Assembly (NCBI RefSeq): GCF_900114455.1
Contig: NZ_FOTC01000008.1
Span: forward strand, 1-64,000
Reading direction: 5' to 3'
DNA: 64,000 nt
Source of the DNA: Halogranum rubrum
GTDB lineage: Archaea > Halobacteriota > Halobacteria > Halobacteriales > Haloferacaceae
In this document: positions 4,277 through 50,090 of the stretch, piece by piece
How the letters are laid out: each line of letters opens with the position of its first letter
Position numbering within the stretch: the first letter of the stretch is position 1
The notes under the pieces: model-generated
The model's database searches: none
What the model was told of the DNA's origin: nothing
The model's input: only the letters and a program-made list of their open reading frames with translations
Position numbers and translations under genes: made by a program

Positions 4277-4295
4277 CTTACGACGGGTATAATGA
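4277..4295 (+). promoter_or_regulatory. CTTA-N8-ATAATAA promoter before glmM
   Basis: CTTA at 4277-4280, eight bases, then ATAATGA at 4289-4295. The glmM start lies 34 bases after the first A of the second box, consistent with a short leader. Confidence 0.65.
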
Positions 4296-8482: not shown

Positions 8483-8819
8483 GTGCTCCGTCTCGTCGGC
8501 CTTCACGGTGGCCGACACGAGCGCTCTCCCCCGGCTGCTGAGCGTCTTCTGGTCACGGTTTCTCTCTCGTCTCAACTGTCGGTGCTCGACGCGCCGTTTT
8601 GACTCGTTTCAACCTCCTAATCGTGCGCACCAGCACGTAGCGTCCGTGTTCTCTCCCGTAGCCAGTCGCTCGTCGAGTGAGGTGTGAGACACTGATTTAT
8701 ACACCGCTAATCGGCCACGAAGCCCGCCGTACTCCCTTCGAAACCGCTAATCTCTCCTCTCGACCGCTTAACCGGCTCATAATAATGGGCGCTTGGTGAG
8801 TAGACGTAGTCAACAAGAC
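8483..8819. other. Intergenic region with ACCGCTAA repeats
   Basis: The region holds no convincing ORF. It contains ACCGCTAATC at 8703-8712 and again at 8743-8752, then ACCGCTTA at 8763-8770, which is also the first box of the downstream promoter. A TTTATAC box at about 8696 could be a second promoter. Confidence 0.5.
8767..8785 (+). promoter_or_regulatory. CTTA-N8-ATAATAA promoter before GlmU-like gene
   Basis: CTTA at 8767-8770, eight bases, ATAATAA at 8779-8785. The start codon is 41 bases after the first A of the second box. Confidence 0.7.
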
Positions 8820-12675: not shown

Positions 12676-13311
12676 ATGAACGCAACGCAGTCGACCCGTG
12701 CATCACCCACGTCCGCCGAGGCAAGCGGCGACGACGTGGCGCAGTTCGAACCGCTCTCGAAGGATAAGCTCTTCCACATCCTACAGAACCAGCGGCGACG
12801 GTACGCACTTCGGTACTTGCAAGGGACCGAAGAAGTCGTAGACATGCGCGATGTCGCCGAACAGGTGGCCGCGTGGGAACACGACACCACCGTCCAGCAG
12901 CTCACGTCCAATCAGCGCCAGCGAGCGTACATCTCGCTCTACCAGTGTCACCTGCCGAAGCTCGATGAAGAAGGGATCATCGACTACAACCAGCAGCGTG
13001 GCTTCGTCGAGCGAACGCCGTTGGCGGATCAACTCGACCCGTACCTCGAAGCGACCGGGTCGACGGAGAAGGACGCCGAAGAGTCCGAAGACGACACCGA
13101 GCTGTCGGCACGGGAGGGTCGACAGATGGGTGTCTCCGAGTGGATGACGATCGGCGGTGTCGCAGTCGCGGCACTGTTGTCGGCGCTGACCGCCCTCGAC
13201 GTCTCGGTCTTCGCCGGAATTCCGGACCTCGCAGTGGCTGGCGTAGTCCTCTGTCTCTGCTCGTTCCTGACTCTGAAGCTTCCCCGCTCGCTGACGCAGT
13301 CCGTTCGGTAG
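12676..13311 (+). CDS. DUF7344-type winged-helix protein with two membrane helices
   Basis: The 211-residue protein has an N-terminal winged-helix domain of the haloarchaeal DUF7344 type (KDKLFHILQNQRRRYALRYL, then DMRDVAEQVAAWEH). Two hydrophobic helices follow at about 158-176 and 182-200. It is a paralogue of the gene at 21419-22084, with nearly identical text through the LPKLDEEGIIDYN segment. It is probably a membrane-tethered transcription regulator. A TATA-like box 34 bases upstream suggests a leaderless message. Confidence 0.85.
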   Translation: MNATQSTRASPTSAEASGDDVAQFEPLSKDKLFHILQNQRRRYALRYLQGTEEVVDMRDVAEQVAAWEHDTTVQQLTSNQRQRAYISLYQCHLPKLDEEGIIDYNQQRGFVERTPLADQLDPYLEATGSTEKDAEESEDDTELSAREGRQMGVSEWMTIGGVAVAALLSALTALDVSVFAGIPDLAVAGVVLCLCSFLTLKLPRSLTQSVR

Positions 13312-21418: not shown

Positions 21419-22084
21419 TTAGCGACGGTTCTGGTAGGCGACGCCCACCGTGACGAACAGGAACATGCCGGTGATGAACGTGGCGAGATAACTCGACAGC
21501 GCCGTCGGCGCGACGCCGACCCACGACATCGCGGTCAGAGCGAGACCGAGCGCAGTCGCACCACTGTAGTAGCGCGCCGAGTCCGTCGTCGTCGCCGAAG
21601 CGGTGTCGTCCGTCTCTGCGGACGTCGTCTCGGTGTCGGCGTCGGCGTCTGCATCGGACGCTCCCTCGCGCACTTCGTCTTCGCTGGCGGCGAGGTAGTG
21701 TTCGAACTGGTTCGCCAGCGGCGTCCGCTCGACGAACCCGCGGCTCTGGTTGTAGTCGATGATGCCTTTTTCGTCGAGTTTCGGCAGATGCGACTGATAG
21801 AGCGCGATGTAGACGCGCTGACGCTCGTCGGAGGTGAGTTGCTGGAGCGTCGTGTCGTGTTCCCACGCGGCCACCTGTTCGGCGATGTCGCGCATGTCGA
21901 CTCGTTCGTCGTCGTCGACGTCCTGTAGGAACGTCAGCACGCGGCGGCGGCGCTGATTCTGCAGGATGTGAAAGAGGTCGTCTTTCGAGAGTTCCGCCTG
22001 CTCTACCGTTTCGTCTGCCGTCTGCGATTCGGTCGTAGTCTCCGCACGTTGCTGCGTCGCTTCGACTGCTTTGGCCGTACTCAT
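21419..22084 (-). CDS. DUF7344-type winged-helix protein with two membrane helices
   Basis: The 221-residue paralogue of the gene at 12676 carries an N-terminal winged-helix domain (SKDDLFHILQNQRRRRVL, DMRDIAEQVAAWEHDTTL), an acidic Ala/Thr-rich linker, and two membrane helices near 175-193 and 198-216. It ends in AYQNRR. It is probably a membrane-tethered regulator. A perfect palindrome, CCCAAACAGTTTGGG, lies at 22135-22149 upstream, placed for autoregulation. A GTTTACAG box near 22107 could be its TATA element. Confidence 0.85.
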   Translation of the reverse strand: MSTAKAVEATQQRAETTTESQTADETVEQAELSKDDLFHILQNQRRRRVLTFLQDVDDDERVDMRDIAEQVAAWEHDTTLQQLTSDERQRVYIALYQSHLPKLDEKGIIDYNQSRGFVERTPLANQFEHYLAASEDEVREGASDADADADTETTSAETDDTASATTTDSARYYSGATALGLALTAMSWVGVAPTALSSYLATFITGMFLFVTVGVAYQNRR

Positions 22085-22251: not shown

Positions 22252-23226
22252 TTATACGTCGAGTGAGCGGTATACCTCGAGTAACCGCTCACCCATCTCG
22301 TCGAGCGACAGTCCGTCGACGACTTCCCGCCCGTCCGACCGGGCGTCGCCAGCGGCGATTTCGGCCAGTCCAGCAGCCAACTCGTCGTCGTCGTCGGCGA
22401 CGACGGAGTTCGACACACCGTCGAGCACGTCGGGCGCGAACCCGACCGGGGTCGTCACGACGGGCACGTTACACGCGGCCGCTTCGCGCACGGCCATCGG
22501 GCCGCTCTCGTACTTCGAGGTGACGAGCAGCGCGTCGGCGGCGTTGAAGTAGTACGGCATCTCCTCGTAGTCGACACCCGACACCGTCCGTAGGTCGACG
22601 CCTGCCTCCTCGGCGACGCGCTCTGCACGCGGGAAATCCTTGACGTCACGCTCGGTATCGTAGGGGAACAGCGCGATGTCGCCCTCGACCGGCCACCCGA
22701 CGCGCTCGCGCGCCTCGGTTCGGTCGATGGGCCGAAAGAGGTCGGTGTCGACGCCGTACGGAATCTGGTGGTGCGGCACCGACAGTTCGCGAGAGAGCGG
22801 TTCCGACGGCGAGATGACGGCGTCGAAGCGTTCGGCGCATATCTCCGAGAGCGCCGCGAGCCACGACGGGCCGAGCACGTCTGACCCCCACAGCGAGAGG
22901 ACGATTGGTCGCACTGGCTGAGCCAGCGCCATCGGCGCGGTCAACCCGTAGTTCGCGTGGACGATGTCGAACTCCTCCAGACTCTTGCCGAGCGTCTGGA
23001 GGTAGAAGGAGAGATACTCTCGTGGCCCGCGACCTTCGCCCGCACGCGGGACGACGACCGTCTCGCACTCGACGCCGCGCTCCTCCAGCACCTCCACTTG
23101 CTTCCGGAAGAACGACCGCTCGGACGTCGTGATGTGGAGGACCCGGAGGTCCAGGTCGGTCTCTGTCTCGGCATCGACGTCTCTCTCCTCTTCGGCGCCG
23201 ACGCTCGTCTCGCCTGCTTCACTCAT
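22252..23226 (-). CDS. GT4 family glycosyltransferase
   Basis: The 324-residue protein has a GT-B fold. An acidic N-terminal extension of 25 residues precedes LRVLHITTSERSF. The C-terminal donor domain carries the family E-x7-E type segment in TSKYESGPMAVREAAACNVPVV near 240-262. It is the last gene of the operon that begins at 27700, and overlaps the DUF354 gene by four bases. It should add a sugar from a nucleotide donor to the lipid-linked glycan on the cytoplasmic face. Donor and acceptor are unknown. Confidence 0.88.
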   Translation of the reverse strand: MSEAGETSVGAEEERDVDAETETDLDLRVLHITTSERSFFRKQVEVLEERGVECETVVVPRAGEGRGPREYLSFYLQTLGKSLEEFDIVHANYGLTAPMALAQPVRPIVLSLWGSDVLGPSWLAALSEICAERFDAVISPSEPLSRELSVPHHQIPYGVDTDLFRPIDRTEARERVGWPVEGDIALFPYDTERDVKDFPRAERVAEEAGVDLRTVSGVDYEEMPYYFNAADALLVTSKYESGPMAVREAAACNVPVVTTPVGFAPDVLDGVSNSVVADDDDELAAGLAEIAAGDARSDGREVVDGLSLDEMGERLLEVYRSLDV

Positions 23227-24254
23227 TGCCGGAGTGCCCGCAACACCGTCTCGGTGGTGTCACCTTTCTCGGAGAGCAGACGCTCGCGGCGGGCGTCCCA
23301 GTCGTCGCCCTCTTCGCCACTGAGGATGGCGACGGCGGTGTCGAGCGCGTTGGCGTGGCGGTAGGCTCCCTGGCAGTTGTACAGGAGCCCGTACCGTGCC
23401 TCTATCTCGTCGGTGTAGCCCATCCGGAGCGTGTTGACGTAGACGGCTGGCGTACCGAGGACGGCGCTCTCGACGGCCATCGTCGCACCCTCGCCGACGA
23501 ACAGGTCGGCGTAGGCCAGCACGTCGTGGATGCGGTGTGGTTCGACGGTGGCGCGGCGGTCTTCCAACTCGTCTGGGAGCGGTGCTTCGGAGGTGATGAT
23601 GACCTGCGCGCCCGTCGCTTCCAACCGCTCGACGACGTCTGCGATGTCGTCGAACCCGGCCTCGCCGACGTCGTGGGAGGCGTCCCACGACACGAGACGG
23701 AGGACGACCAGTTTCTTCTCGGGGTCGACGCCGAGGTCTTCGAGCACGCTCGGGTCCGGGTCAAAGCGATTAGGATGGAGATACGCCAGTTCGTGGTACC
23801 CGGCGTACTCCTCTTGCTTGCTCCCGGCGTCGTCGTGGAAGCACTCGGGCGTCCACACCTCGTCGGCGACGGGGAAGGTAATCTTGTTCGCCGGAGCGTG
23901 TTCGGTGTCGGTGAAGACGACGCTGCGCGCGCCGACGAGCGCGGCGACGTGTGCCACGGCGGTGCCGCCGATGGCGGTCATCACGTCGGGGCGAATCTCG
24001 CGCGCTCGCTTCAGCAGTTTGTACTCGTACTGCACCTGCGACGCCGCCATGCCGCCGACTCCGGCGAGGAGGCCGTCGCCCTGCCCGTCGAGGAGCACTT
24101 CGTGGTCGATGTCGTAGGCGTCGAGCAGGTCGACGGCGACTTCCTTGTCCCGGGCGAACACGTGGACCTCGTGGCCCTCCGCTTCCAACTCGCGGATGGC
24201 GTGCTTGAAGAAGTGCACGTGCGCCGGATGTTGGATGGTGACGACGTATTTCAT
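23223..24254 (-). CDS. DUF354 family protein (GT-B/epimerase-like)
   Basis: The 343-residue protein begins MKYVVTIQHPAHVHFFK and contains FTDTEHAPANKITFPVADEV and GEGATMAVESAVLGTPAVY, as in DUF354 proteins. These share a fold with UDP-GlcNAc 2-epimerases and GT-B glycosyltransferases. In this operon it follows two UDP-sugar dehydrogenases. It may be a 2-epimerase giving the manno sugar, like WbpI, or a transferase; sequence alone does not decide. It ends inside the GT4 gene by a four-base overlap. Confidence 0.85.
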   Translation of the reverse strand: MKYVVTIQHPAHVHFFKHAIRELEAEGHEVHVFARDKEVAVDLLDAYDIDHEVLLDGQGDGLLAGVGGMAASQVQYEYKLLKRAREIRPDVMTAIGGTAVAHVAALVGARSVVFTDTEHAPANKITFPVADEVWTPECFHDDAGSKQEEYAGYHELAYLHPNRFDPDPSVLEDLGVDPEKKLVVLRLVSWDASHDVGEAGFDDIADVVERLEATGAQVIITSEAPLPDELEDRRATVEPHRIHDVLAYADLFVGEGATMAVESAVLGTPAVYVNTLRMGYTDEIEARYGLLYNCQGAYRHANALDTAVAILSGEEGDDWDARRERLLSEKGDTTETVLRALRQ

Positions 24255-24258
24255 CGTG

Positions 24259-25573
<1,315 letters not shown>

Positions 25574-25581
<8 letters not shown>

Positions 25582-26962
25582 TGATACCAACTCCTCGGTA
25601 GTGAACGGCGTCGTGGCCACGGAGTTCTGTCAGCGACTGACGGCCGTCCACGACGACCAACCGTCCGCCCTGCGGTGCGAGACTCGTGAGGTCGAGGTCC
25701 TCGAAGGCCTCCTGCGGCGTCACGAGGACGACCGAGTCGTACGCGTCGGCGATGTCGTCGAGGTCGACCAGGTTCGCCCCGGCCGCCTCGAACGCGTCGG
25801 TGTGCGTGTTCACCGGGTCGACGGCGTCGACGTCGACGCCCGCCTCGACCAGTCGCTCGACAATGGGGAGCGACGGCGTGGCGCGAATCTCGTCGACGCC
25901 GGGTCGGTAGGTCAACCCGAGGACGAGCGTCGTCGCCTCGCTCGGGTCGACGCCTTCGGCGTGCAGGCCGTCGAGGACGTGCTCTGCGGTGTAGGTCGGC
26001 ATCTCGTCGTTCGTACTCCGGGCCGCTTGCATCACGGGCGTCTCCGTGTCGAACTCCTTCATGATGAACTGCGGGTAGTACGGGATGCAGTGGCCGCCGA
26101 CGCCCGCACCCGGCGTGTGAATCTCACAGAACGGTTGGGTGTTGGCCGCCTCGATGGCCTCCGTCACGTCGATGTCGAACGCTTCGGTGTGTTTCGCCAG
26201 TTCGTTCGCGAGACCGATGTTGACGTCGCGGTAGACGCCCTCGAACACCTTGACCGCCTCAGCCGTCGTCGTATCGGAGACGCTGAGGACGTCGTTCGAG
26301 TTGATGTGACCGTAGATGAGTTCGGCCACGCGGGTACTCTCCTCGTCCGCGCCGCCGACGATTTTCGGGTACGCGCCACGGATGTCCTCCAGTGCGCGTC
26401 CGCTCGCGGTTCGCTCCGGACAGAAGGCGAGACCGAACTCGCCCAGTTCGAGTCCGGACTCTTCTTCCAAGATGGGAAGCAGGCGGTCGACGCAGGAACG
26501 CGGCGGGAGCGTCGACTCGGCGATGACCATGTCGCCTTCCTTCAGATTGCTGCCGATGTCGCGCATCACCGACTCCATGATGGAGAGGTCGGGTGCGCCG
26601 TCCTCGTCGATGAGCGTCGGGACGATGGCGACGTGGACACGAGCGTCCTTCGCGGCTTCTGCGGGGTCCGAGACAGCGCGGAATGCGTCTCGCGAGACGA
26701 GTTCCGAGACGAGTTCGTCGAGGCCCGGTTCGCCAGCGATGTGGTTCTCGCCCGCGTTGATGCCGGCGACCACGTCGGGGTCGACGTCCGCACCGGTGAC
26801 GTTGCCCGTGACGTCGGCGTAGACGCTCGCCAGCGGGAGGCCCATCTTCCCGAGGCCGTAGACGGCGACGGGTACGTCACCGTTCGTGAAGGCTGCGTGT
26901 TGGTCGTCTTCCGATTCCGTGCTGCCGTACAGGGCGGTCCCTGTTGTGAGTGCTTCGCTCAT
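25574..26962 (-). CDS. UDP-N-acetyl-mannosamine dehydrogenase-like (WecC type)
   Basis: The 462-residue protein is a second member of the same dehydrogenase family. Its NAD loop is VAVYGLGKMGLPLASVYAD, about 30 residues in. The catalytic Cys is in GAGVGGHCIPYYPQF, and LGLTYRPGVDEIRATPS marks the C-terminal domain. The HCIPYYP motif and general character are closer to WecC, which makes UDP-ManNAcA. It overlaps both neighbours, four bases with the acyltransferase and eight with the other dehydrogenase. Two non-identical dehydrogenases imply two uronic acids. Confidence 0.87.
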
Positions 26963-27543
26963 GCGAGTTTGTTTTCGGTGTCGAGTTCGTCCGGAAGCGG
27001 TCGGTGCTCTGCGGGACTGCCGACGGCGAGCGTCTCCGGTGGGACGTCTTCGGTGACAGTCGACCCAGCGGCGACGAACGCGCCCTCGCCGATGGTGACA
27101 CCGGGGAGGATGGTCGCGTTCGCGCCGATGGAGACGCCGTCTTCGATGGTCGGCCCCTGCATCTCGACGTCCTGCCGGACGGGGTAGGGGTCGTTCGTCA
27201 GCGTCGCCTTCGGCCCGATGAAGACGTTCGACCCGATGGTCGTGTGCGTCGGGATGTAGACGCCCGTCTGCAGGCTGACGTTCGAGCCGATGTCGCAGGT
27301 TCCGTCGATGACCGTCTCGGTTCCCACCACGACTTCGTCGCCGATGGTGGTGTCCTCGCGGACGAGGGCGTTGTGCCCAGTGATGAAGTCCGCGCCGATG
27401 GTGACGTCGGCGTAGATTATCGTCCCCTGTCGGATTCGCGCTCGGTCGCCCAGTGTCGCTGGCGACACGTCGTCGCCGTGCATGTAGCCGACCGTCGCAC
27501 CGTCGTCGATGTCACAGCTGTCACCGGCGTGATACCAGCCCAT
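26959..27543 (-). CDS. Hexapeptide N-acetyltransferase (WbpD-like)
   Basis: The 194-residue protein is a left-handed beta-helix of hexapeptide repeats from about 14 to 175. Its last coils (IGSNVFIGPKATLTND, GANATILPGVTIGEGAFVAA, then AVGSPA) match the UDP-2-acetamido-3-amino-glucuronate N-acetyltransferase family, which is close to 190 residues in bacteria. It would acetylate the 3-amino group made by the aminotransferase at 29495. The ATG is one base after the stop of the 51-residue ORF upstream. Confidence 0.85.
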   Translation of the reverse strand: MGWYHAGDSCDIDDGATVGYMHGDDVSPATLGDRARIRQGTIIYADVTIGADFITGHNALVREDTTIGDEVVVGTETVIDGTCDIGSNVSLQTGVYIPTHTTIGSNVFIGPKATLTNDPYPVRQDVEMQGPTIEDGVSIGANATILPGVTIGEGAFVAAGSTVTEDVPPETLAVGSPAEHRPLPDELDTENKLA

Positions 27544-27544
27544 C

Positions 27545-27700
27545 TCAGGTCTCCACGTCGATGGTCACTGTCTCGGAGTCGATTCGCTCGGTCGTCTCGT
27601 GCCCACCGTCTGCTGGTGCAGCGACCCGGCGAGCGACGACGCCGAGCGTCGCGAGGGTGATACCGAGGACTGCCAGCCCGATGAGGAGTTTGCGGGTCAT
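27545..27700 (-). CDS. 51-aa single-helix membrane miniprotein at operon head
   Basis: The ORF has 51 codons plus TGA and ends one base before the acyltransferase ATG. It encodes a basic start (MTRKLL), one hydrophobic helix to about residue 23, two Arg and an acidic tail. The glycan promoter lies 47 bases upstream, leaving only a short leader, so this is the first translated ORF of the operon. It could anchor or regulate the enzymes or act as a leader peptide. The family is unknown. Confidence 0.7.
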   Translation of the reverse strand: MTRKLLIGLAVLGITLATLGVVARRVAAPADGGHETTERIDSETVTIDVET

Positions 27701-27740
27701 CTCTGGGTTGCTCTCGTACTGTGTGTGGTCTCAAAGGCGT

Positions 27741-27759
27741 TTTATTATGGGCGGAGTAA
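27741..27759 (-). promoter_or_regulatory. CTTA-N8-ATAATAA promoter of the six-gene glycan operon
   Basis: CTTA at 27759-27756, eight bases, ATAATAA at 27747-27741. The first ORF starts 47 bases downstream. Confidence 0.72.
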
Positions 27760-27885
27760 GCGACTTCTTAGGCGTGCGTTAGGCTGCACAACATCCAGGA
27801 AAACCAGAACTATGCCCGCTCGCCCGCTCTCCGTGCCGCTCGGTGACACGTCTCTCGAAACCGTCCCAGTGTGACACGCTCGCCC

Positions 27886-28278
27886 TCACTCGTCTAACAC
27901 ACAGAGACAGTCGTCCATCAGCGGGTTCTTCGAGATGAACACGGACGGTTCCAACGACACCGCGATTCCCCGCCGGTCGTCGAGAAAGAAGAACACCTCG
28001 GTGACACTCTCGAAGTTCTTCACGACGAAGTTCAGCGTGTCGTGCGTTCCGTGTTGGGTCCGTATCGTTCGCCCGAGCGACTCCATTCCGGTCGCGTCCA
28101 TCACCGTCTCCAACTCGGTCTGTTCTTTCGGGATGTCTGCCTCCGACCGAACGTAGACGAGTTCGTACGTCCCCGAGTCCTGAAATAGTTCTGAATCCGT
28201 CGTGTAGTCGACGACTGCACGCAACCCGTCACCAACCTCTGCCCGGAGGAACGTCGCCAACTGTCGTGACTGCTTCAT
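27886..28278 (-). CDS. Haloarchaeal conserved protein of unknown function
   Basis: The 130-residue soluble protein has alternating helices and strands, including YELVYVRSEADI near 40 and VTEVFFFLDDRRGIAVSLEP near 92-112. I recall similar small proteins in many haloarchaea (probably DUF7522), without known function. It has no link to the adjacent glycan genes by overlap and seems transcribed alone. Confidence 0.75.
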   Translation of the reverse strand: MKQSRQLATFLRAEVGDGLRAVVDYTTDSELFQDSGTYELVYVRSEADIPKEQTELETVMDATGMESLGRTIRTQHGTHDTLNFVVKNFESVTEVFFFLDDRRGIAVSLEPSVFISKNPLMDDCLCVLDE

Positions 28279-28500
28279 CGTCTTCGAGCCAAACGGACGA
28301 GTCTGTCGATGTTAGGTGTTTGCTTGTCGGAACTGCCGTCGACCACTGTCTACTGTCGTTCGTACTATCCGTCTCTCCACCGAGATGGCGAATTCGACGG
28401 CGTCCTTAAAACCGTAAAAATCGGCGGCGACTGCGAGAAAGAGCGTCGGTGACTGGGATGTCTGGGTTGTCTGGGATGACAGGTATCGAGGACGACTGGG

Positions 28501-29502
28501 TTAGTCGTCTTGGGTGAGCGGAGAGCGTCCGGTCTTGGTCTCCGGTTCGGTCGCCGCGAGTTCGTCGAGTTGACGGGTGACCTCCAGCGCGCGGAGGCCG
28601 TCCTCGCCGGAGACGACGGGGTCGGACCCGGTGCGAACGGCGTCGGTGAAGGCAGTCAGTTCCTTCTTCAGCGGTTCGCCCTGGTCGACGGTGAGTTTCT
28701 CGACGACGTTCTCGTGCCGGTAGCGAACGTCGCCGTCCTCGACGTACTCGGGTGCGGACTGGCGGTGAATCTCGATGCTCTGGTCGATGTAGTCGACTTT
28801 CACACGCGCCTCGGCCGCGGAGATGGTAAGCTGTCGCACCTTCTCCTGTGTGACTCGACTCGCCGTCAGTTCGGCCACCGTGCCGTCCTCGAACTGGAGG
28901 TTGGCGGCACCGTACGCGCCTTCCTGCGTTCCGACGGCGTTGACCGAGTGGACGTCTTCGCCGACGAGCGCCAACACGATGTCGATGTCGTGAATCATCA
29001 GGTCCATCACGGCGCTGTCGTCGATTTCGCGGTCCAGCGGCGGGCCAAGTCGTTCGGCGGTCACCGCGATGACGTCGAGGTCGTCGACGATGTCCATCAG
29101 CGTGCGGACCGCGGGGTTGAAGCGTTCGACGTGACCGACTTGGAGCACGACACCGCGCTCTTCGGCGAAGTCGATGAGCGTCTGCCCGTTCTTCGGGTCC
29201 TCGACGAACGGCTTCTCGACGAGTACGCTGACACCGGCGTCGATACACTCGCGTGCGGCGTCGAAGTGGTACTGCGTCGGGACGGCGATGGAGACGGCGT
29301 CGGCCTGCTCCAGCAGTTCGTCCATCGTGAGCGCTCGCGTGCCGAAGTCGGCGGCGACCTCTTTTGCGCGCTCCATGGCGGCGTCGTAGAGGCCGACGAG
29401 TTCGACACCCGGCAGGTCACGGTAGATTCGGACGTGGTTCTGCCCCATACTTCCGACGCCGATAACACCGACTTTGACCGTCTCCGAGTTTCTCTTAGAC
29501 AT
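28501..29502 (-). CDS. Gfo/Idh/MocA oxidoreductase (WbpB-like)
   Basis: The ATG at 29502 overlaps the aminotransferase by eight bases and gives 333 residues. The NAD loop is VGVIGVGSMGQNH, the catalytic region has VLVEKPF near 98, and MIHDIDIV lies near 163. In the Wbp route this class oxidises C3 of UDP-GlcNAcA to the 3-keto sugar, which the aminotransferase then aminates. Two-gene pairing with a DegT enzyme is typical of that route. Other 3-keto or inositol substrates cannot be excluded. Confidence 0.87.
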   Translation of the reverse strand: MSKRNSETVKVGVIGVGSMGQNHVRIYRDLPGVELVGLYDAAMERAKEVAADFGTRALTMDELLEQADAVSIAVPTQYHFDAARECIDAGVSVLVEKPFVEDPKNGQTLIDFAEERGVVLQVGHVERFNPAVRTLMDIVDDLDVIAVTAERLGPPLDREIDDSAVMDLMIHDIDIVLALVGEDVHSVNAVGTQEGAYGAANLQFEDGTVAELTASRVTQEKVRQLTISAAEARVKVDYIDQSIEIHRQSAPEYVEDGDVRYRHENVVEKLTVDQGEPLKKELTAFTDAVRTGSDPVVSGEDGLRALEVTRQLDELAATEPETKTGRSPLTQDD

Positions 29503-30628
29503 TGGGTACCTCCGTCGTCGCAACTGGGTCGACTGGTTCGACGTCAACCTCGTGCATGACGTCGACGATTGTTTCGAGGTCTGCCTGCGTCAGGTTCGGA
29601 TGGACAGGCAGCGAGAGTGCCTGCTGTGCGACCGTCTCGGCGACGTCGAGGTCCGTCGGTCCGGTGTAGTCCTCGTACGCTTCGAGTTCGTGAATCGGGT
29701 TCGGGTAGTAGATACCCGACCCGACGCCGTGGTCGTCGAGTTGTTCGATGAGCTCCTCGCGGTTGCCCACGCGAACTGTGTACTGGTGGTAGACGTGGCG
29801 CAGTCCCTCGGGTTCGGTCGGGGTCACCGCGTCGGTGTCCGCCAGTCCCTCGGTGAGGAACGCCGCGTTCTCGCGGCGCGCCTCGTTGAACCCGCGGATG
29901 CGGTCCATCTGTGCGACGCCGATTGCGGCACAGAGGTTCGTCATCCGGAAGTTGTGGCCGACCTCGACGTGTTCGTAGCCGGACTGACTCCGGCCGTGGT
30001 TGACGAAGCGCCGTGCGGCGTTCGCAACCTCCTCGTCGTTGGTCGTGATCATGCCACCCTCGCCGGTGGTCATGTTCTTCGTCGGGTAGAAGGAGAAACA
30101 CGCCGCGTCGCCCATCGACCCGGCCGTCTCGTCGTGATAGCCCGCACCGTGCGCCTGCGCGGCGTCCTCGACGAGCGGAACGTCGTACTTCTCTGCGATT
30201 TCGCGCAGGTGGTCCATCTCCGCGGAGAGTCCGTAGAGGTGGACGGGCATGATGCCGTCGACGTCGCCGTCTCGGTCGCGGACGACCTGTTCGACCGCGT
30301 GCGGGTCGAGGTTGAACGTCTCGGGGTCGACGTCCGCGAAGACGGGTTCTGCGCCCGCAAAGCGGATGGTGTTCGCCGTGGCGACGAACGAGAACGGCGT
30401 CGTAACCACCGTGTCGCCCTGTTCGACGCCGACTGCGGTCAGCGCCGTGTGGAGCGCGGTGGTACCGTTCGTGGTGGCGACCGCGTGTTCCGCCCCGCAG
30501 TAGTCTGCGAAGCGCGCTTCGAACTCGCTGACCGCCTCGCCTGCAGCGAGCTGTCCCGATTCGAGGACGTCGACGACACCTTTCAGTTCGGCGTCACCTA
30601 CTTCCGGGTCTGCGATTGGAATGCTCAT
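29495..30628 (-). CDS. DegT/DnrJ/EryC1 sugar aminotransferase (WbpE-like)
   Basis: The 377-residue PLP enzyme has ATTNGTTALHTAL near 50, the Asp loop VEDAAQAHGA near 152 and the Schiff-base Lys in SFYPTKNMTTGEGGM near 180. The family transfers an amino group to keto nucleotide sugars. With the oxidoreductase downstream it probably makes the 3-amino derivative of UDP-GlcNAcA. Its ATG shares bases with the TGA of a 35-residue ORF (ATGA). Confidence 0.9.
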   Translation of the reverse strand: MSIPIADPEVGDAELKGVVDVLESGQLAAGEAVSEFEARFADYCGAEHAVATTNGTTALHTALTAVGVEQGDTVVTTPFSFVATANTIRFAGAEPVFADVDPETFNLDPHAVEQVVRDRDGDVDGIMPVHLYGLSAEMDHLREIAEKYDVPLVEDAAQAHGAGYHDETAGSMGDAACFSFYPTKNMTTGEGGMITTNDEEVANAARRFVNHGRSQSGYEHVEVGHNFRMTNLCAAIGVAQMDRIRGFNEARRENAAFLTEGLADTDAVTPTEPEGLRHVYHQYTVRVGNREELIEQLDDHGVGSGIYYPNPIHELEAYEDYTGPTDLDVAETVAQQALSLPVHPNLTQADLETIVDVMHEVDVEPVDPVATTEVPNV

Positions 30629-30756: not shown

Positions 30757-30775
30757 TTATTATCGGCCGACTAAG
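30757..30775 (-). promoter_or_regulatory. CTTA-N8-ATAATAA promoter before leader ORF and aminotransferase
   Basis: ACCGCTTA at 30779-30772, eight bases after CTTA, ATAATAA at 30763-30757. It is close to the consensus. Confidence 0.72.
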
Positions 30776-36093: not shown

Positions 36094-36510
36094 ATGTTCA
36101 CCGACCTCACCCACGTGACGATTCTGGTCGACGACCAGGACGAGGCGCTCGACTACTACACGAACACACTCGGGTTCGAAACACACGACGACGTGGCGTT
36201 CGGCGACGGGATGCGCTGGGTCACCGTCGCGCCATCGAACAGCGACCGACAACTCGCGCTCGTCGCCGCCGATACACCGGAGAAGTCAGACCGAGTCGGG
36301 TCGCAGGCCGCCGACCACGTCGCCGTCGTCCTCGAAACGGACGACTGCGTCGGAGACTACGAACGACTGCGCGAGAAGGGCGTGGTGTTCCACGGCGAAC
36401 CTGCCGAAGAGCCGTGGGGTATCTCCGCCGTCTTCGAGGACCTGTTCGGGAACGTGTTCAACGTCGTCGAACCCGCCGATTTCGACGAATCCGACGAACT
36501 CAGCGCGTGA
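36094..36510 (+). CDS. VOC/glyoxalase family protein
   Basis: The 138-residue protein has the two beta-alpha-beta-beta-beta modules of the vicinal oxygen chelate fold: THVTILVDDQDEALDYYTNTLGF at the start and DHVAVVLETDD with DLFGNVFNVVEP at the end. His8 and Glu near 128 may be metal ligands. The substrate is unknown. Its 3' end overlaps the convergent GT4 gene by 11 bases. Confidence 0.87.
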   Translation: MFTDLTHVTILVDDQDEALDYYTNTLGFETHDDVAFGDGMRWVTVAPSNSDRQLALVAADTPEKSDRVGSQAADHVAVVLETDDCVGDYERLREKGVVFHGEPAEEPWGISAVFEDLFGNVFNVVEPADFDESDELSA

Positions 36511-37759
36511 CGACGCGCTTCGTCGCGGCGACTTCGCGATAGAGGTCGGAGTACTTTCCGATGACCGTCTCCGGCGCGAACCGCGGTAGTTCGTCGTCGA
36601 TGGCGGCGTAGTGGGCGTCGTAGTCGTCGACCAGTCGTTCGAAGGCGTCGGCGAGCGCCGACGGGTTGCCCGCCTCGAACGGTTCGCCCGCGTCGCCGAC
36701 GATGAAGTCCATACTTCCCACGTCGGAGACGAGAAGCGGGGTCCGCATCGACAGCGCTTCGAGCACCACGCGGCCGAACGGTTCGTCGATGAGGCCCGGG
36801 TAGACGAAGGCGTCGGCCTCGTCGTAGATATCGGGCAAGTCGCCGTGGTCGACGTAGCCGAGCCAATCGATGGCGTCGGCGACGCCTTCTTCGCTCGCTA
36901 ACTCTTTCAGTCGCGCTTCGTACGGTCCCGACCCGACGATTTCGAGTTCCACGTCGTGACCGCGCCGTCGCATCTCGGCGAGTCCGGGGATGAGGACGTG
37001 CAGGCCCTTGATGTCCTGCAGTGCGCCGACGTAGAGCAGGGTGACGGGGTCGCCGTCGTCGACGCCTGCCTCGGGGTCGGGGTCCTCGCGGTGGAACGCC
37101 TCGTCGTAGAAGTGCGGGATGACGGTCGTTCGCTCGCCCGGGAACCCCAGTGCGGCGTAATCCTCCTTCAGGTGCGGCGAGAGCGCGTGGTAGGCGTCGA
37201 TATCGTCGGCGTGTTTCATCGACTTCTGGACGAGGTCTATCTTCCCGAGCGAGGAGTAACTCGCGCGGAGTTCGCGTTCGACACCCTGTCGGCGCTTGAC
37301 GGCCGTCGTCGCGATACAACTCGCACACTTCACGGGCGACGGGCCGGAACATTTCCGCTCGCCGTGGTACATCATGTCGCCCTTCGGACAGACCGGGACG
37401 TAGGAGTTCAGCGTCGACAGCGTCGGTACCTCGAGGTCGGCGAGCACGGGGATGAACGCCGAGGAGTAGGAGTGGACGAGGTCGTGACGCTCCATCGCGG
37501 GCAGTTCCTCGCGCAGCGCCTCGTGTTTCGCGGCGATTGGGTGGGGAAGCTTCGAGAGGTTGTCGTGCATCACGTACTCGACGCGGTCTTCCGCCGGCAG
37601 GTCGGCGTTCGCCGAGTCCATCTGACTCGACACGTAGACCGTCAGGTCGTGGCGCTCGGACAGTCGCTCGATGAGGAGCGTCGACGTCTCCACGGCCCCC
37701 GACCCCGGTGCACCGGGGCACTCTGCCGGGACGAAGCCGACGTCGAGTCGCTCGCTCAC
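36500..37759 (-). CDS. GT4 family glycosyltransferase with cysteine cluster
   Basis: The gene starts with GTG and encodes 419 residues. The donor domain has IVGSGPYEARLKELA, then DEADAFVYPGLIDEPFGRVVLEAL with the GT4 Glu residues near 335. A cysteine-rich insertion near 125-155 (CPKGDMMY, CSGPSPVKCASC) may bind metal and is known in a GT4 subgroup. The GTG overlaps the stop of a 13-codon leader ORF (GTGA). It likely adds a sugar to the surface glycan. Confidence 0.88.
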   Translation of the reverse strand: MSERLDVGFVPAECPGAPGSGAVETSTLLIERLSERHDLTVYVSSQMDSANADLPAEDRVEYVMHDNLSKLPHPIAAKHEALREELPAMERHDLVHSYSSAFIPVLADLEVPTLSTLNSYVPVCPKGDMMYHGERKCSGPSPVKCASCIATTAVKRRQGVERELRASYSSLGKIDLVQKSMKHADDIDAYHALSPHLKEDYAALGFPGERTTVIPHFYDEAFHREDPDPEAGVDDGDPVTLLYVGALQDIKGLHVLIPGLAEMRRRGHDVELEIVGSGPYEARLKELASEEGVADAIDWLGYVDHGDLPDIYDEADAFVYPGLIDEPFGRVVLEALSMRTPLLVSDVGSMDFIVGDAGEPFEAGNPSALADAFERLVDDYDAHYAAIDDELPRFAPETVIGKYSDLYREVAATKRVVTR

Positions 37760-37856: not shown

Positions 37857-38969
37857 TCATCCGAGTCTGTCGAGTGTGACGTGGAACACCGACCCCTCCG
37901 GGTCGTTGTCTTCGACCCACACGTCGCCACCGTACTGCGCGACGAGTTGGTTGACGAGATAGAGACCGATGCCCGTCCCACTGCTCTCGGGCCCCTGTTC
38001 GCCCTCGCCGAATATCGTCTCCTTTCGCCGGTCGGGGATGCCCGGCCCGTTGTCGGCGACAGAGACGGTCACCTCGTCGTCGTCCGTTTCGACCCACAGC
38101 GTCACGCGCGGCGTCTCCTTGTCGTTGTACAGGATAGCGTTCGAAAAGAGGTTCGCGAACACCGACGACAGGAGGTCGTTCGCCCGAACGTCGACGGGTG
38201 GAATCTCACCGCGTATCTCGATGCTCCCGCCGTCGTAGAGCCGTCTGACACTCTCGACTTCCGACTCCAGCACCGACTTCAGGGCGACGGGACTCAGGTC
38301 GTCCGCTTCCGTCCGGGTGACGGTACTGACGATGTCGCCGATGCTGCGGGTCAACTGCAGGATGTGGTTGCTCGTCCGAATGATCTCGTCGAGTTGTGAT
38401 TCGCCGTGGTAGTCGACGTGCTCTGCCAACTCGCGTGCCCGGCCGACGACGAGCGTCATCTCGTTGCGGATGTCGTGGCGCGTCAGTTGGTTGAGGATGC
38501 GCAACTCTTCGGTCTGGCGGCGCAGCTTTTCTTCTGTCTTCTTCCGCTCGATGGCGTACCGGATGGCGCGTAAGAGCACCTCCGGGGTCACTTCGTCTTT
38601 GACGAGGTAGTCCTGTGCACCGTGCGAGACGGCGTCGATACCGAGTCGCTCCTCGGGGACGCCCGTCAGGACGATGATGGGCGTCGTCGACGTTCGGTCG
38701 CGAACGTAGTCGACCGTCTCCAGTCCGTGACTGCCGGGCAGGTTCAAATCGAGGAGGATGATGTCGAAGTCGACGTCCGCCAACCGCTGGTCGACTGTCG
38801 AGATACGGTCACAGTGATAGAGGGTGACGCCGTCTCCCGACGGCGCTTCGGTCGTCTCGTCGTCGACGACGGTCACGGCGTGTTCTGCGTCGCGGAAGTG
38901 CTCCTGGAGGAGACGTGCGTCTCCAGGGTTGTCCTCGACGAGCAGAACGGTGAGTTCGTCAGGAATCAT
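37857..38969 (-). CDS. Receiver-histidine kinase hybrid
   Basis: The ATG at 38969 gives 370 residues. A receiver domain (about 5-125, acceptor Asp in IILLDLNLPG) precedes a phosphoacceptor helix with LTRHDIRNEMTLVVGRAREL and an ATPase domain ending in NGPGIPDRRKETIFGEGEQG and GIGLYLVNQLV. The RHDIRNE box is typical of haloarchaeal kinases. It overlaps the upstream response regulator by 11 bases, so the two are coupled. It lacks membrane segments and is cytoplasmic. Confidence 0.9.
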   Translation of the reverse strand: MIPDELTVLLVEDNPGDARLLQEHFRDAEHAVTVVDDETTEAPSGDGVTLYHCDRISTVDQRLADVDFDIILLDLNLPGSHGLETVDYVRDRTSTTPIIVLTGVPEERLGIDAVSHGAQDYLVKDEVTPEVLLRAIRYAIERKKTEEKLRRQTEELRILNQLTRHDIRNEMTLVVGRARELAEHVDYHGESQLDEIIRTSNHILQLTRSIGDIVSTVTRTEADDLSPVALKSVLESEVESVRRLYDGGSIEIRGEIPPVDVRANDLLSSVFANLFSNAILYNDKETPRVTLWVETDDDEVTVSVADNGPGIPDRRKETIFGEGEQGPESSGTGIGLYLVNQLVAQYGGDVWVEDNDPEGSVFHVTLDRLG

Positions 38970-39387
38970 TGGTGACTGGGGGTAGTGTCGCAGCGCGAAC
39001 CCAAAACGACTCGATACGGTCGACGGCTTCGTCGAATCCGTCGGGGTCTGCGGGGCGCTCGACGTGGGCGTTCGCTTGTTCGTCGTACGACTGTTCGCAG
39101 GCAGTCGGCGAGTCACTGATGGTGATGACGGGGATGCGTCGTAGCTGTTCGTCGGCTTTCACCGTCTGAAGCAACTCCACTCCTTCACCGTCGCCTTCGA
39201 ACTCCATCAGGAGCAACTGCGGTGGTGGAACCTCGCCGCTTCGCATCCGGTCGAGAGCCGTCTCTGCGTCGTTGACGACGGTCAGGTCGAACCGTTCGGC
39301 CCGGTCGAAGGCTTCGGTGAGCGCTTCGTCACCGCTTGCGGCGAACAACAGGACCTCTACTGTTTCGTCTCCATCTTCGTGTAACAT
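38959..39387 (-). CDS. Degenerate response regulator receiver
   Basis: The 142-residue protein is a lone receiver fold. The strand that should carry the phosphoacceptor reads PQLLLMEFEG, with Glu where Asp is expected. The later Lys is also not obvious (AHVERPADP). It may therefore be constitutively active-like or a binding partner only. It overlaps the receiver-kinase gene. Confidence 0.8.
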   Translation of the reverse strand: MLHEDGDETVEVLLFAASGDEALTEAFDRAERFDLTVVNDAETALDRMRSGEVPPPQLLLMEFEGDGEGVELLQTVKADEQLRRIPVITISDSPTACEQSYDEQANAHVERPADPDGFDEAVDRIESFWVRAATLPPVTNDS

Positions 39388-39426: not shown

Positions 39427-40332
39427 TCAGGTTCTGTTCAATAGTGCCTGCACGTCGCGTGCCGTCGACTCCTCGTCGTCGGCGTCGACGCGCGACTCCA
39501 GTTCTTTCAGTCGAGTCTCGAGTCGCTGGTAGCGGTCGTCACGTTTGAGCGTCTCGTCGGTCTTCTCCGCGCGGAGGACCGCCCGCTTCGCACTCAACGC
39601 GAGGTACTCCTGCACCTCGGTGTCGTAGGCGGTTCGAGCGAGGACGTCGGCGATGACCTCCTTCAGTTCCTCTTTCGTTCCCGGTTTGACGATGTAGGCG
39701 TCGAACCCCATCTGGAGGATGTCGAAGTCCGGTTCGACCGCACTGAGCATGATGACCTGAGACGACAGTCGAAGGTCTCGAATCCGGTCGAGTACCTCCT
39801 CACCCGACAGGCCGGGCATCCGCCGGTCGAGGAGGACGACGTCTATCTCGTCGGTGAGCTTTCTGAGCGCCTCCTCGCCGTCGTAGGCGCGCTCTATCTG
39901 GTACTCCTCTTCCAGCCAACTCGCGTGCATCGTCACCAGCCGTGGGTCGTTGTCGACCACGAGGACGACGGGTCGGGTGTCCTCGCCGAGATGTTGCTCT
40001 CCCCAGTCGGCGAGTGCGTCGATGACCGACTGCATATCTCGTCCGTGTCGGGTGAGGTTGTACTCGACGCGGCGTGGCGATTCACTGACCTCGATTCGGT
40101 CGATGAGGTCGTTCTCGACGAGGTCGTCGAGACTGTCTGTGAGGACCTTCGCCGAGATGTCGAGACGATTCTTTAGCTCGCTGAAGCGCAGCGGACCGTC
40201 TCGAAGAAGTGCCTGGATGATGACCGGGTGCCACTTCTTCGAGATGAGGTTCACTGCCGCGACCATCGTCTCGACGTCGGCGTCGTTCCTGTTGTTCCGC
40301 CTCGACACGTGTGATACTCTCCTTATGTTCAC
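39427..40332 (-). CDS. HxlR-REC-HalX fusion regulator
   Basis: The GTG at 40332 gives 301 residues; a GTG at 40308 is also possible. Residues about 20-115 are an HxlR-type winged helix (ISKKWHPVIIQALLRDGPLRFSEL, RRVEYNLTRHG). Residues 120-238 are a receiver with the acceptor Asp in VVLLDRRMPGLSGEEV. Residues 238-290 are a HalX helix. HalX usually follows receivers alone; an added DNA-binding domain makes a one-protein response regulator. Its own promoter is of the glycan type, so it is a candidate regulator of the regulon. Confidence 0.88.
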   Translation of the reverse strand: MNIRRVSHVSRRNNRNDADVETMVAAVNLISKKWHPVIIQALLRDGPLRFSELKNRLDISAKVLTDSLDDLVENDLIDRIEVSESPRRVEYNLTRHGRDMQSVIDALADWGEQHLGEDTRPVVLVVDNDPRLVTMHASWLEEEYQIERAYDGEEALRKLTDEIDVVLLDRRMPGLSGEEVLDRIRDLRLSSQVIMLSAVEPDFDILQMGFDAYIVKPGTKEELKEVIADVLARTAYDTEVQEYLALSAKRAVLRAEKTDETLKRDDRYQRLETRLKELESRVDADDEESTARDVQALLNRT

Positions 40333-40350
40333 AGACAGTCTGTAGTAATA

Positions 40351-40369
40351 TTGTTATAGGCCTGATAAG
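40351..40369 (-). promoter_or_regulatory. CTTA-N8-ATAACAA promoter before HxlR-REC-HalX
   Basis: CTTA at 40369-40366, eight bases, ATAACAA at 40357-40351. A degenerate second copy (CTTA-N8-ATAAGCC) lies a few tens of bases further upstream on the same strand. Confidence 0.6.
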
Positions 40370-40506
40370 GTCGTTTCCTGGCCGAATCTCGGCGTGCTCG
40401 GCGGCTTATCAGGCACCTAAGCCGGTTACCTGCGCGTAATCTCGTGACTCACCCGCCCGTTAGTTCCTATTGATACGCTGACAAAAGTTGGTAAGGCTGA
40501 GTAGTT

Positions 40507-41820
40507 ATGACGGATACACAGTCTCCGGATGGGGGTCAAATCGACCGACGAACGTTCCTCGGTGCGGCAGGTGCGGCGGCCTTGTTGGGTTCCTTCACGG
40601 GTCGGGCGAGAGCGACCCCCGACGCTACGACGGCGCTCGGCGACGGCGACGTCGTCGAGTCGTTCGCGGGAATCGCTAACTTCGGCGGCAAACTCGTCGT
40701 CGGGCGTGGCGGCTACCGCACGATTCAAGAAGCGTGGGACGACGCCGAGAGCGGCGACGTCGTCTACGTCCACTCGTCGTACGACGCACAAGAGGTGGGC
40801 GAGGAGTTTCCAATCGTCCTCGACTACGAGGAGAAAGAGGTCACGCTGACCGGTGGCCACCCCTCCGGGTCGGTCATCGACGCCGGTGACGTCGACGAGA
40901 ACGTCGTCGAAGTCCTCGGGCGAGGGATGAACGACTATCGCAACAACCCGCTCGTTCAGAACCTCAAACTCGTCGGCGGCAACATCGGTCTCCGGATTCG
41001 GGCCGCCCCGTACTCGACGTACAAGGATATCGTCGTCTACCAGACGAAGTCGCACGGAATCTCCGTCGAACCGTACACCGACGAACGCGGCGACTTCAAG
41101 GGGACGTTCGGCGTCACCTTCCGCAACGTCGTCGTCTGGGGCTGTGGCGGAACCGGGTTCCGACTCGACACCGACGCGCGACCCCACAGCACCTCCTTTT
41201 TCGGGTGTGACTCGCTTCTCAACGGCGGATACGGCGTCCAACTGCGCGGCTACTCGTGCCGATGGGTCGGCGGCACGATTCAGAACAACGGCGACTGCGG
41301 TGTCGACGCCCGAAGCGGCTGTGGACAGTTGGTCAGCGGCGTCTACCTCGAAGGGAACGGGACCGCGATGGCTTCTCCCATCGAGATCTACGTCGCGGAG
41401 TCGGGACCGGGGTTCACCTGTGACACCTGCTACTTCCAAGGACACTACGCGCGGAACTTCGACAACGGCCTCGACGACGGCGTGTTCGGTATCTTCGTCG
41501 ACGGCGCGCCGCACGCGTCCATCTCGAACTGCACCTACCGCAACTTCGACGAGTACTTCCTCTTCGTGCGCGATGCGCGAGACGTCGACGTCCACGCACC
41601 GTCGCACTGTCCGCTCGACGGGACGACGTTCCTCGGCGAAGACGACTGTGAACGCCTCCGAAGCGACGGCGTCGTCCAGGAGAGTGACCTCCGATACGTC
41701 GAGGGCGTCTTCCGCGGCGACATGGGTATCCACGACGGCGAGGGCGGATTCCTCTGGGGGCCGGCCATCTGGAACGGCCGTGAGTGGCTCAGCGTGATGC
41801 GGCCGGAAGTCATCGCCTGA
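40507..41820 (+). CDS. Tat-exported right-handed beta-helix protein
   Basis: The 437-residue protein has a Tat signal (DRRTFLGAAGAAALLG) and then strands typical of a parallel beta-helix (TIQEAWDDAESGDVVYVHSS, VRNLKLVGGN-like segments, VVVWGCGGTGF). It is related in fold to the pair at 32658 and 34385 but not a close copy. It carries several Cys residues in the second half. It may bind or process surface glycan. It lies directly before the GT2 operon but has its own upstream region. Confidence 0.85.
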   Translation: MTDTQSPDGGQIDRRTFLGAAGAAALLGSFTGRARATPDATTALGDGDVVESFAGIANFGGKLVVGRGGYRTIQEAWDDAESGDVVYVHSSYDAQEVGEEFPIVLDYEEKEVTLTGGHPSGSVIDAGDVDENVVEVLGRGMNDYRNNPLVQNLKLVGGNIGLRIRAAPYSTYKDIVVYQTKSHGISVEPYTDERGDFKGTFGVTFRNVVVWGCGGTGFRLDTDARPHSTSFFGCDSLLNGGYGVQLRGYSCRWVGGTIQNNGDCGVDARSGCGQLVSGVYLEGNGTAMASPIEIYVAESGPGFTCDTCYFQGHYARNFDNGLDDGVFGIFVDGAPHASISNCTYRNFDEYFLFVRDARDVDVHAPSHCPLDGTTFLGEDDCERLRSDGVVQESDLRYVEGVFRGDMGIHDGEGGFLWGPAIWNGREWLSVMRPEVIA

Positions 41821-45083: not shown

Positions 45084-45295
45084 TGTCACGACGAGAACCC
45101 GTCCGTCACGCCGCACATCGACGAGCACTGTTCGACGAGCGATTGGATTTCACTTATCCAGGCCATAACCAAATGACTGACACCCGAACCACTGATACGA
45201 TGATAGCGGAGGGGACGCTTACGGCGCGGCAGTACACATTCGCTGGCGTCGGGCTGCAGCATCGAGCGACGACCGAAGGAGGTGACCGTCGATGA
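45083..45295 (+). CDS. Small coupling ORF between GT-C and phosphodiesterase genes
   Basis: The 70-residue ORF is joined to both neighbours by overlapping codons: TAATG with the GT-C stop and ATGA with the next start. Its first 30 residues are basic and poorly conserved-looking. A CTTA-N8-ATAACCA promoter lies inside it, and an internal ATG at 45200 sits 35 bases after the second box, giving a 31-residue peptide. The shorter form resembles the other leader ORFs in the window. Confidence 0.5.
   Translation: MSRREPVRHAAHRRALFDERLDFTYPGHNQMTDTRTTDTMIAEGTLTARQYTFAGVGLQHRATTEGGDRR
45153..45171 (+). promoter_or_regulatory. CTTA-N8-ATAACCA internal promoter
   Basis: CTTA at 45153-45156, TCCAGGCC, then ATAACCA at 45165-45171. 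It resembles the HxlR-REC-HalX promoter most closely. Confidence 0.55.
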
Positions 45296-47118: not shown

Positions 47119-48624
47119 CTACAGTGTTCCTTCGTCTCCTGACTGGCCGGTGTCCGGAATCGTGAAGTGGAACGTCGTTCCCGAATCGCCGTCGGACTCG
47201 ACCCAGATACGACCGCCGTGGTGGTCGACGATCTTCTCACAGATGGCGAGACCGATGCCGCTCCCGCTCTGACCGCCCTCTCCAGAGAATATCTCGAAGA
47301 TGCTGTCTTGGCGGTGCTTGGGGATGCCGATGCCGTCGTCCGAGACGGTGAACGTCCACTCGTCGCCCTCGCGAGCGGCCGAGATGGTGATGCGCGGACG
47401 CCCATCGTCGGTGTACTTGATGGCGTTGGCGACGAGATTCTGAAAGAGTTGGGTGAGTTGTCCCGGGTCGCCGTGGACGGTCGGGAGTTCTCCGGCCTCG
47501 ACGACGGCACCGCTCTCCTCGATGGCGATGCGCAGGTTCGACTGCGCGGTGTCGAGGACGTCGCCGACGTCGATGCGCTCGAAGTCGCGCGTCTGTCGGC
47601 CGACGCGCGAGTAGGCCAAGAGCCCGTTTATCATCTCGCGCATCCGCTCTGACCCTTCGACGGCGAAGTCGATGAACTCCTGTGCGTCCCCGTCGAGTTG
47701 GTCGCCGTAGCGACGTTCGAGGAGTTCGAGATAACTCGACACCATCCGCAGTGGCTCTTTCATGTCGTGGGAAGCCACGTAGGCGAACTGTTCGAGTTCC
47801 GTGTTCGACTCTTCGAGTTCTTCGACGGCCTCGTCGAGTTGCTGCTCCGCCTCCCGTCGCTCGGTGATGTCGCGGCCGACGCCACAGATGTACTGCTCGC
47901 CGCCGCAGTCGACGAGCGACGCCGTGAGTTCGTACGGGATGACCGACCCGTCGCGCGTCACGAGGTCTGCGGTGAACCGGATATCCGTGTCGTCTCGCAT
48001 CTCGGTGACTTTCTCCCGAACGTCGAGACCGTCTTGGAAGAACTCACTTGGCGTACTCGACCGTATCTCGCTGTCGGTGTATCCGGTGACTGCGTTCAGG
48101 CGGTCGTTCCAGCGCAGCAGGTTCCCGTCGAGGTCGGCGAGGAAGAGCACGTCGGGTAACCCTCTGACGACGGCGTTGGCGAACGTTCTGTTGCCGACGC
48201 CCTCGGCGAACGATGAGGTTCCGACGTTGTGTGTCGAGACGCCGCCGTCGCCGAGTGAGATACGGCTGTCATCTCGAGTAGTGGCTGGGGACGTGGCGTC
48301 CGACACGAGCGCGTCGACGATGTCCGTGAGTTGGTCGACGGCCGCTGGCGGGACGGCCTCGTCGTACACTCCGGCTGGGAGGGTGGTCGCCGACTCCGTC
48401 TCGACGACGATGGGAAGGGAAGAGGGATCGGTGTCGACTTTCGACAGGAAGGTGGTGATGTCACTGACGGTGTCGCTCACGACGAGCGCGTCGAACGGGG
48501 CGACTGCGAGTCGGTTGAGTGCGTCGTCGGGCGTCTTGACGACACACACGCTGACGTCGGCCGTCGACACGAGTTTCTCGATCGTCTCACAGTTGTCCCC
48601 GACGTAGAGGAGTTCTAGAGTCAC
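47119..48624 (-). CDS. PAS-sensor histidine kinase with receiver-like N-terminus
   Basis: The 501-residue protein starts with a receiver-like fold (about 1-115), whose acceptor position is not clear. A PAS domain follows (about 145-265, VLFLADLDGNLLRWNDRLNAV). A coiled coil leads to the phosphoacceptor helix YVASHDMKEPLRMVSSYLELL near 285-305. The ATPase domain has NAIKYT, DDGIGIPKHRQDSIF and GSGIGLAICEKIV. It is cytoplasmic. No adjacent cognate regulator is in the same operon. Confidence 0.9.
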   Translation of the reverse strand: MTLELLYVGDNCETIEKLVSTADVSVCVVKTPDDALNRLAVAPFDALVVSDTVSDITTFLSKVDTDPSSLPIVVETESATTLPAGVYDEAVPPAAVDQLTDIVDALVSDATSPATTRDDSRISLGDGGVSTHNVGTSSFAEGVGNRTFANAVVRGLPDVLFLADLDGNLLRWNDRLNAVTGYTDSEIRSSTPSEFFQDGLDVREKVTEMRDDTDIRFTADLVTRDGSVIPYELTASLVDCGGEQYICGVGRDITERREAEQQLDEAVEELEESNTELEQFAYVASHDMKEPLRMVSSYLELLERRYGDQLDGDAQEFIDFAVEGSERMREMINGLLAYSRVGRQTRDFERIDVGDVLDTAQSNLRIAIEESGAVVEAGELPTVHGDPGQLTQLFQNLVANAIKYTDDGRPRITISAAREGDEWTFTVSDDGIGIPKHRQDSIFEIFSGEGGQSGSGIGLAICEKIVDHHGGRIWVESDGDSGTTFHFTIPDTGQSGDEGTL

Positions 48625-48925
48625 GGTGGCCCTATCCTCCCTATTGTCACTCGGTTGTCTGGACGGCTCTTCGATTTTGACCGTCCATTAGTTGGTTGTT
48701 TCGTCCCTGGCCCTTCCATAGTTCTTTTACGTGAATCCGGCAAGAAATATGTTACTCAATGTGATGTTGTGACATGCGAGATTCTCTGTGGCCGCTGACA
48801 TTCTGTAAGCGGTCGTCAAACCGCTGAAATCGGTAGTTACCGACCGGTAAGGTCGATGGCTCACGTATCTGTTATATTAAGTATATATCCCACCGTGGTG
48901 TAGCGGGGTGGTAGAACCGACCGTG
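48625..48925. other. Intergenic region with inverted repeats
   Basis: No protein gene is seen. AGCGGT and ACCGCT form an inverted repeat around 48808-48826, and TTACC/GGTAA pairs follow at about 48835-48850. A TATATAT box is at about 48882-48888. A GTGGTGTAGC string at 48895 looks tRNA-like but no T-arm follows. Confidence 0.5.
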
Positions 48926-48991
48926 ATGGAAACCGGACCTACTGCCCTCCTCGATGTGACGTCGACCGGACGAGGAGACGGTATTCAATGA
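48926..48991 (+). CDS. Putative 21-aa leader ORF
   Basis: The ATG at 48926 (or an in-frame GTG at 48908) opens an ORF whose TGA overlaps the ATG of the next gene. The TATATAT box is about 40 bases upstream. It has the coupled form of the glycan leader ORFs but lacks the CTTA box. Confidence 0.35.
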   Translation: METGPTALLDVTSTGRGDGIQ

Positions 48992-49191: not shown

Positions 49192-49194
49192 CCG

Positions 49195-50082: not shown

Positions 50083-50090
50083 CGGTCTCT

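Follow-up and report, generated by a model that had tools for sequence, protein, structure and literature searches.

A local HxlR-REC-HalX response regulator, rather than a master regulator, is the probable output of a two-component cassette in a haloarchaeal surface-glycan locus

The response regulator gene described here lies in a 64,000-nucleotide stretch of Halogranum rubrum DNA (contig NZ_FOTC01000008.1, positions 1 to 64,000), which we call the window. The gene is accompanied by two further two-component genes, a glycosyltransferase gene and a promoter of the (C/T)TTA-N8-ATAATAA class (hereafter the class promoter), as follows.

22252..30628, minus strand: nucleotide-sugar and transfer genes, a WbpA/B/E/D-like set (Pfam)
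36500..37759, minus strand: GT4 glycosyltransferase, with which the probable regulator operon ends (Pfam, synteny)
37857..38969, minus strand: REC-histidine kinase without a sensor domain (Response_reg and HATPase_c in Pfam), adjoining the regulator in orthologous glycan loci
38959..39387, minus strand: degenerate receiver protein (Pfam REC match below cut-off; acceptor Asp replaced, Lys missing)
39427..40332, minus strand: HxlR-REC-HalX response regulator (Pfam matches above cut-off, 15-member alignment, AlphaFold model)
40351..40369, minus strand: class promoter of the regulator operon, CTTA-N8-ATAACAA, CTTATCAGGCCTATAACAA (pattern match; conserved in orthologues)
40405..40421, no strand assigned: CTTATCAGGCACCTAAG, a CTTA-N9-TAAG palindrome and candidate operator at the regulator's own promoter (conserved block)
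40507..41820, plus strand: divergently encoded beta-helix protein whose N-terminus is twin-arginine-like (sequence, Pfam)

The preliminary description had placed the regulator among glycan genes, and both the Pfam matches of the surrounding genes and the synteny in orthologues of several families confirm this location. The region 22252..30628 encodes glycosyltransferases, two UDP-sugar dehydrogenases, a hexapeptide acetyltransferase, a Gfo/Idh dehydrogenase and a DegT aminotransferase (Pfam).

The regulator is 301 amino acids long when counted from the GTG at 40332. The start is ambiguous, since the GTG at 40308, with AAGGAG about 10 nt upstream, is a likely alternative. The protein is composed of an HxlR winged helix (residues 29-117), a receiver (123-227) and a HalX domain (233-297), in that order, and all three matches exceed the curated Pfam cut-offs (HxlR PF01638, E-value 6e-24; Response_reg PF00072, 8e-19; HalX PF08663, 5e-14). 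To our knowledge, no function has been established for HalX. In a profile built from 15 relatives, the N-terminal domain matches YodB and HxlR, and the middle part matches many receivers. The 15-member alignment shows Lys216 and Asp127 as invariant and the phospho-acceptor Asp169 as almost so, whereas the second residue of the acidic pocket is Asn128 in the window regulator and Asp in nearly all of the relatives. Thus, the earlier claim of an HxlR-REC-HalX fusion with an intact Asp stands for the three domains, their order and the acceptor Asp169, which is accompanied by the Lys216 expected of a receiver, but not for the pocket. No cysteine occurs anywhere in the protein, and the N-terminal sensing cysteine of the YodB-type redox HxlR/DUF24 regulators is therefore missing; this rules out thiol sensing of the kind seen in certain HxlR/DUF24 proteins, with input via the receiver instead. 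The AlphaFold model (mean pLDDT 76) contains a long C-terminal helix, and its low pTM (0.49) means that it does not fix the arrangement of the domains.

The probable start of the REC-histidine kinase, ATG at 38969, overlaps the end of the receiver gene (38959..39387), and the regulator is probably co-transcribed with the glycosyltransferase from the class promoter. The receiver protein found at the same place in three other genomes (G057, G029 and G098) has an intact REC domain that retains both Asp and Lys. As judged from its degenerate counterpart in the window and from Asn128 of the regulator, this strain may have a weaker phosphorelay through the cassette.

Nine other genomes in a sample of 293 from the order encode an orthologue with 57-60% identity along almost the entire protein. 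The locus type is that of the window in all nine cases: a REC-histidine kinase and the GT4 glycosyltransferase known from the window lie close by and nucleotide-sugar genes further on, so that the regulator has the conserved kinase and the glycan-gene adjacency of a cluster-situated two-component regulator. A scan of named genomes yielded orthologues in Halogranum amylolyticum (86% identity) and Halobium salinum (76%), as well as in Halalkalicoccus, Haloarcula, Halorarius, Haloglomus and Halorubrum. The neighbourhoods agree for the named orthologues of Halogranum, Halobium, Halalkalicoccus, Haloarcula, Halorarius and Haloglomus, with some of the loci incomplete.

The window contains further copies of the class promoter.

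4277..4295, plus strand: class promoter ahead of a phosphosugar mutase-like gene (pattern match)
8767..8785, plus strand: class promoter ahead of a sugar nucleotidyltransferase gene (pattern match)
27742..27760, minus strand: class promoter copy inside the glycan cluster (pattern match)
30757..30775, minus strand: class promoter upstream of the aminotransferase operon, also kept in the Halogranum locus, G050 and G040
45153..45171, plus strand: class promoter copy ahead of a phosphodiesterase gene (pattern match)

CTTA-N8-ATAA is not enriched genome-wide (27 copies in 4.57 Mb, against 32 for the backward control), yet eight of the 27 copies fall within the window, which represents 1.4% of the genome and would be expected to hold 0.4. 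The more specific CTTA-N8-ATAAYNA has six matches in the window, as compared to 0.00 in 100 shuffles, and the window contig carries nine copies of CTTA-N8-ATAA and none with spacings of 5-7, 9 or 10. Because the motif was originally picked from the window for the preliminary description, the decisive test lies in other genomes, where homologous glycan clusters again contain dense groups of CTTA-N8-ATAA. A set of 18 haloarchaeal glycan clusters, the window included, was selected by CTTA at spacing 8, so that the selection favours this spacing. In this set, CTTA precedes ATAAYAA at spacing 8 in 87 cases, compared with a single case for the remaining spacings from 0 to 20 taken together. The same clusters contain 135 copies of ATAATAA, 81 with CTTA and 28 with another NTTA at the same place. 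The regulon was sampled by pattern searches, and the (C/T)TTA-N8-ATAATAA class is common to homologous glycan clusters of several haloarchaeal families (G239:C28:1-60000, G266:C2:395001-450000 and others, L073-L112). The claim that the regulator's own gene bears a regulon promoter is thus borne out by the site at 40351-40369 on the minus strand and by the rigid 8-bp spacing across the 18 clusters. Under a strict rule, a genome counts as enriched if it has five or more sites and its count is no lower than twice the control plus two; 18 genomes pass, a list that overlaps with that of the 18 clusters and is not identical to it.

A start codon 33-37 nt downstream of ATAA is common in the clusters, and many isolated copies share this feature. 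In haloarchaea, with their leaderless transcripts, the distance from the start codon locates the TATA box, and archaeal activators bind just upstream of BRE. Read in this light, the sequences suggest that ATAATAA is probably the TATA box and that CTTA lies directly upstream of BRE.

The exact class motif occurs at the own promoter of six orthologues, counting that of the window (the others being L148, L156, L154, L155 and G098), and with one mismatch in three more (L152, L153 and G014). In the Halalkalicoccus group, the motif is mostly missing from the own promoters or takes the form of an ACTA or TCTA variant. The DNA preceding the class promoter is poorly conserved except for the block CTTAGGTGNCTGRTAA, which the window shares with Halogranum and Halobium; a search of 183 loci found no occurrence beyond these three closest orthologues. 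In the window, the block forms a perfect CTTA-N9-TAAG palindrome at 40405-40421, which is the best candidate for binding of an HxlR dimer. Since the block itself reads as CTTA-N8-RTAA, one factor could recognize both the block and the class motif.

The best candidate reader of the class promoter itself is a DUF7344 winged-helix protein. Three copies of DUF7344 are encoded in the window, two of them as follows.

12676..13311, plus strand: winged-helix-like DUF7344 protein, a candidate for reading the class promoter (Pfam PF24035; occurs in promoter-rich clusters)
21419..22084, minus strand: second DUF7344 protein of the glycan cluster (Pfam)

At first pass, DUF7344 was found in 14 of the 18 promoter-rich clusters (DUF7343 domains in 16), and an extended search located it inside or adjoining most of the remaining ones. 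Several genomes have a class promoter divergent from their DUF7344 gene. A DUF7344 match of about 3e-38 or better occurs in every one of the 18 enriched genomes but also in about 70 others, and the protein is hence a companion of the class promoter and not a proven reader. A literature search on DUF7344 found no paper in the library consulted. RosR was considered as a reader; the published Halobacterium motif, TCGnCGACGAGnTCGnCGAC, is unlike the class promoter (PMC4287449), which counts against this candidate without finally dismissing it. The promoter elements in the SptA study differ from the class promoter as well (PMC6085418).

Several other regulatory genes were observed in these surroundings. 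The class promoter precedes RosR/PadR-like winged-helix genes in two families (G022 and G084; L134 and L141). In the window, the protein encoded at 13446-14954 has a hydrophobic segment in its N-terminal part, TSP3 repeats and, at the C-terminus, a DUF7343 winged helix, and is possibly a membrane-bound regulator. Genes of the kinase, HalOD1, receiver, DUF7344 and Bat-like regulator types lie beside the glycan cluster at 47119-52547, and this arrangement is partly shared by Halogranum (L148). In another genome, a protein with REC and HalX but no clear HxlR domain (G082:C4:15015-15599) shares a small contig with class promoters and DUF7344.

If another conserved winged-helix protein mostly reads the motif, the HxlR-REC-HalX regulator might compete with it or have replaced it in its own clades. 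The regulator and the motif do co-occur in most of the glycan-linked orthologous loci outside the Halalkalicoccus group, and the palindrome in the regulator's promoter resembles the class motif. However, DUF7344 persists in the window and in the orthologous loci with no sign of replacement, and we regard such shared reading as unlikely, albeit the best placed of the alternatives.

The preliminary description had proposed the protein as a master regulator reading CTTA-N8, which would imply that its HxlR domain recognizes CTTA-N8-ATAATAA at its own gene as well as throughout the locus. The class motif at the own promoter of several orthologues, its possible reading as a pseudo-palindrome (CTTA-N9-TAAY) suited to a winged-helix dimer and the synteny of the regulator with the glycan locus are in agreement with this proposal. 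However, a full-length orthologue is present in only two of the 18 enriched genomes, the window's own and G098, and the 16 without it led us to reject a master role on the basis of motif co-occurrence. In this search, scores were obtained for the best candidates of each genome only, but full-length orthologues score far above the matches in those 16. Likewise, among the 18 promoter-bearing clusters, the regulator was found only in the window and G098, while the other 16 have the identical promoter at the same fixed spacing. Conversely, the Halalkalicoccus-type genomes possess an orthologue while their genome-wide motif count is not above the control, although single copies do precede conserved glycan genes. 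The protein is therefore neither required for the promoter class nor a sign of it, and does not occur wherever the class exists, which leaves the master role unsupported and, in our estimate, improbable, even somewhat more so than shared reading. The class promoter is probably read by a factor other than the regulator. Autoregulation, also raised earlier, is possible, and is not implied by the mere presence of the class motif.

HxlR-REC-HalX relatives of at most 53% identity form separate, well-supported clades outside glycan loci and beside sensor kinases, and the class motif is absent from the 16-21 kb examined around each of them. These clades show that the family is not tied to glycans and would suit a passenger cassette controlling genes beyond the glycan locus, but the regulator, the REC-kinase and the glycosyltransferase stay together across families, often behind the class promoter, and we consider this the least probable explanation.

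We therefore favor, with a probability of roughly 0.6, the reading that the regulator is the local output regulator of a two-component cassette embedded in the locus, and itself a regulon member, rather than the factor that defines the class. The small cassette, lying inside a haloarchaeal surface-glycan locus, would consist of the HxlR-REC-HalX protein, the receiver protein and the REC-histidine kinase. A signal at the kinase would lead to phosphorylation of Asp169, either directly or via the receivers, and the resulting change in dimerization could place the HxlR winged helix on a palindrome, probably the one at 40405-40421. From there, the regulator may tune both the divergent gene and the operon to which it belongs, perhaps with effects on further parts of the locus. 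The operon would be driven by the locus's own promoter class, read most likely by a DUF7344 protein, with the HxlR-REC-HalX regulator acting as a local modulator.

More broadly, we give even odds to the view that (C/T)TTA-N8-ATAATAA is a dedicated, rigidly spaced promoter class of a surface-glycan regulon in several families, read by a winged-helix activator (probably DUF7344), and that the HxlR-REC-HalX cassette is a recurring module feeding a signal into this regulon. We know of only few archaeal response regulators with a recognizable DNA-binding domain whose targets are known. For the present one, the locus is defined, the kinase partner and the promoter are conserved and a candidate operator is at hand, so that its function is directly testable; the promoter class offers a means to predict haloarchaeal surface-glycan genes and to fish for the controlling factor.

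The domain order, which the preliminary description had called uncommon, is indeed so but is not novel, since Galperin's 2018 census of archaeal two-component systems lists the HxlR-REC-HalX architecture (PMC5847659). The regulators in the census are haloarchaeal and have the identical domain order; the census describes the architecture only, while the context, the promoter and the candidate operator come from the present analysis. The winged helix of YodB and HxlR, of the HxlR/DUF24 group (PDB 5hs7 and 7bzd), matches the N-terminus of the regulator over its whole length, but the regulator lacks their thiol-sensing cysteine and has a receiver and HalX fused to this domain. As in the LtrR-like archaeal HTH-REC regulators (PMC5847659), the DNA-binding domain precedes the receiver, whereas the additional C-terminal HalX and the glycan-locus context set the window regulator apart. 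Finally, CsmR of Haloferax volcanii (PMC13286277) is a different protein that acts on motility genes through a different motif, TATCA-N4-TGATA, but it resembles the present system in that its recognition element adjoins BRE/TATA in a co-regulated set of promoters.
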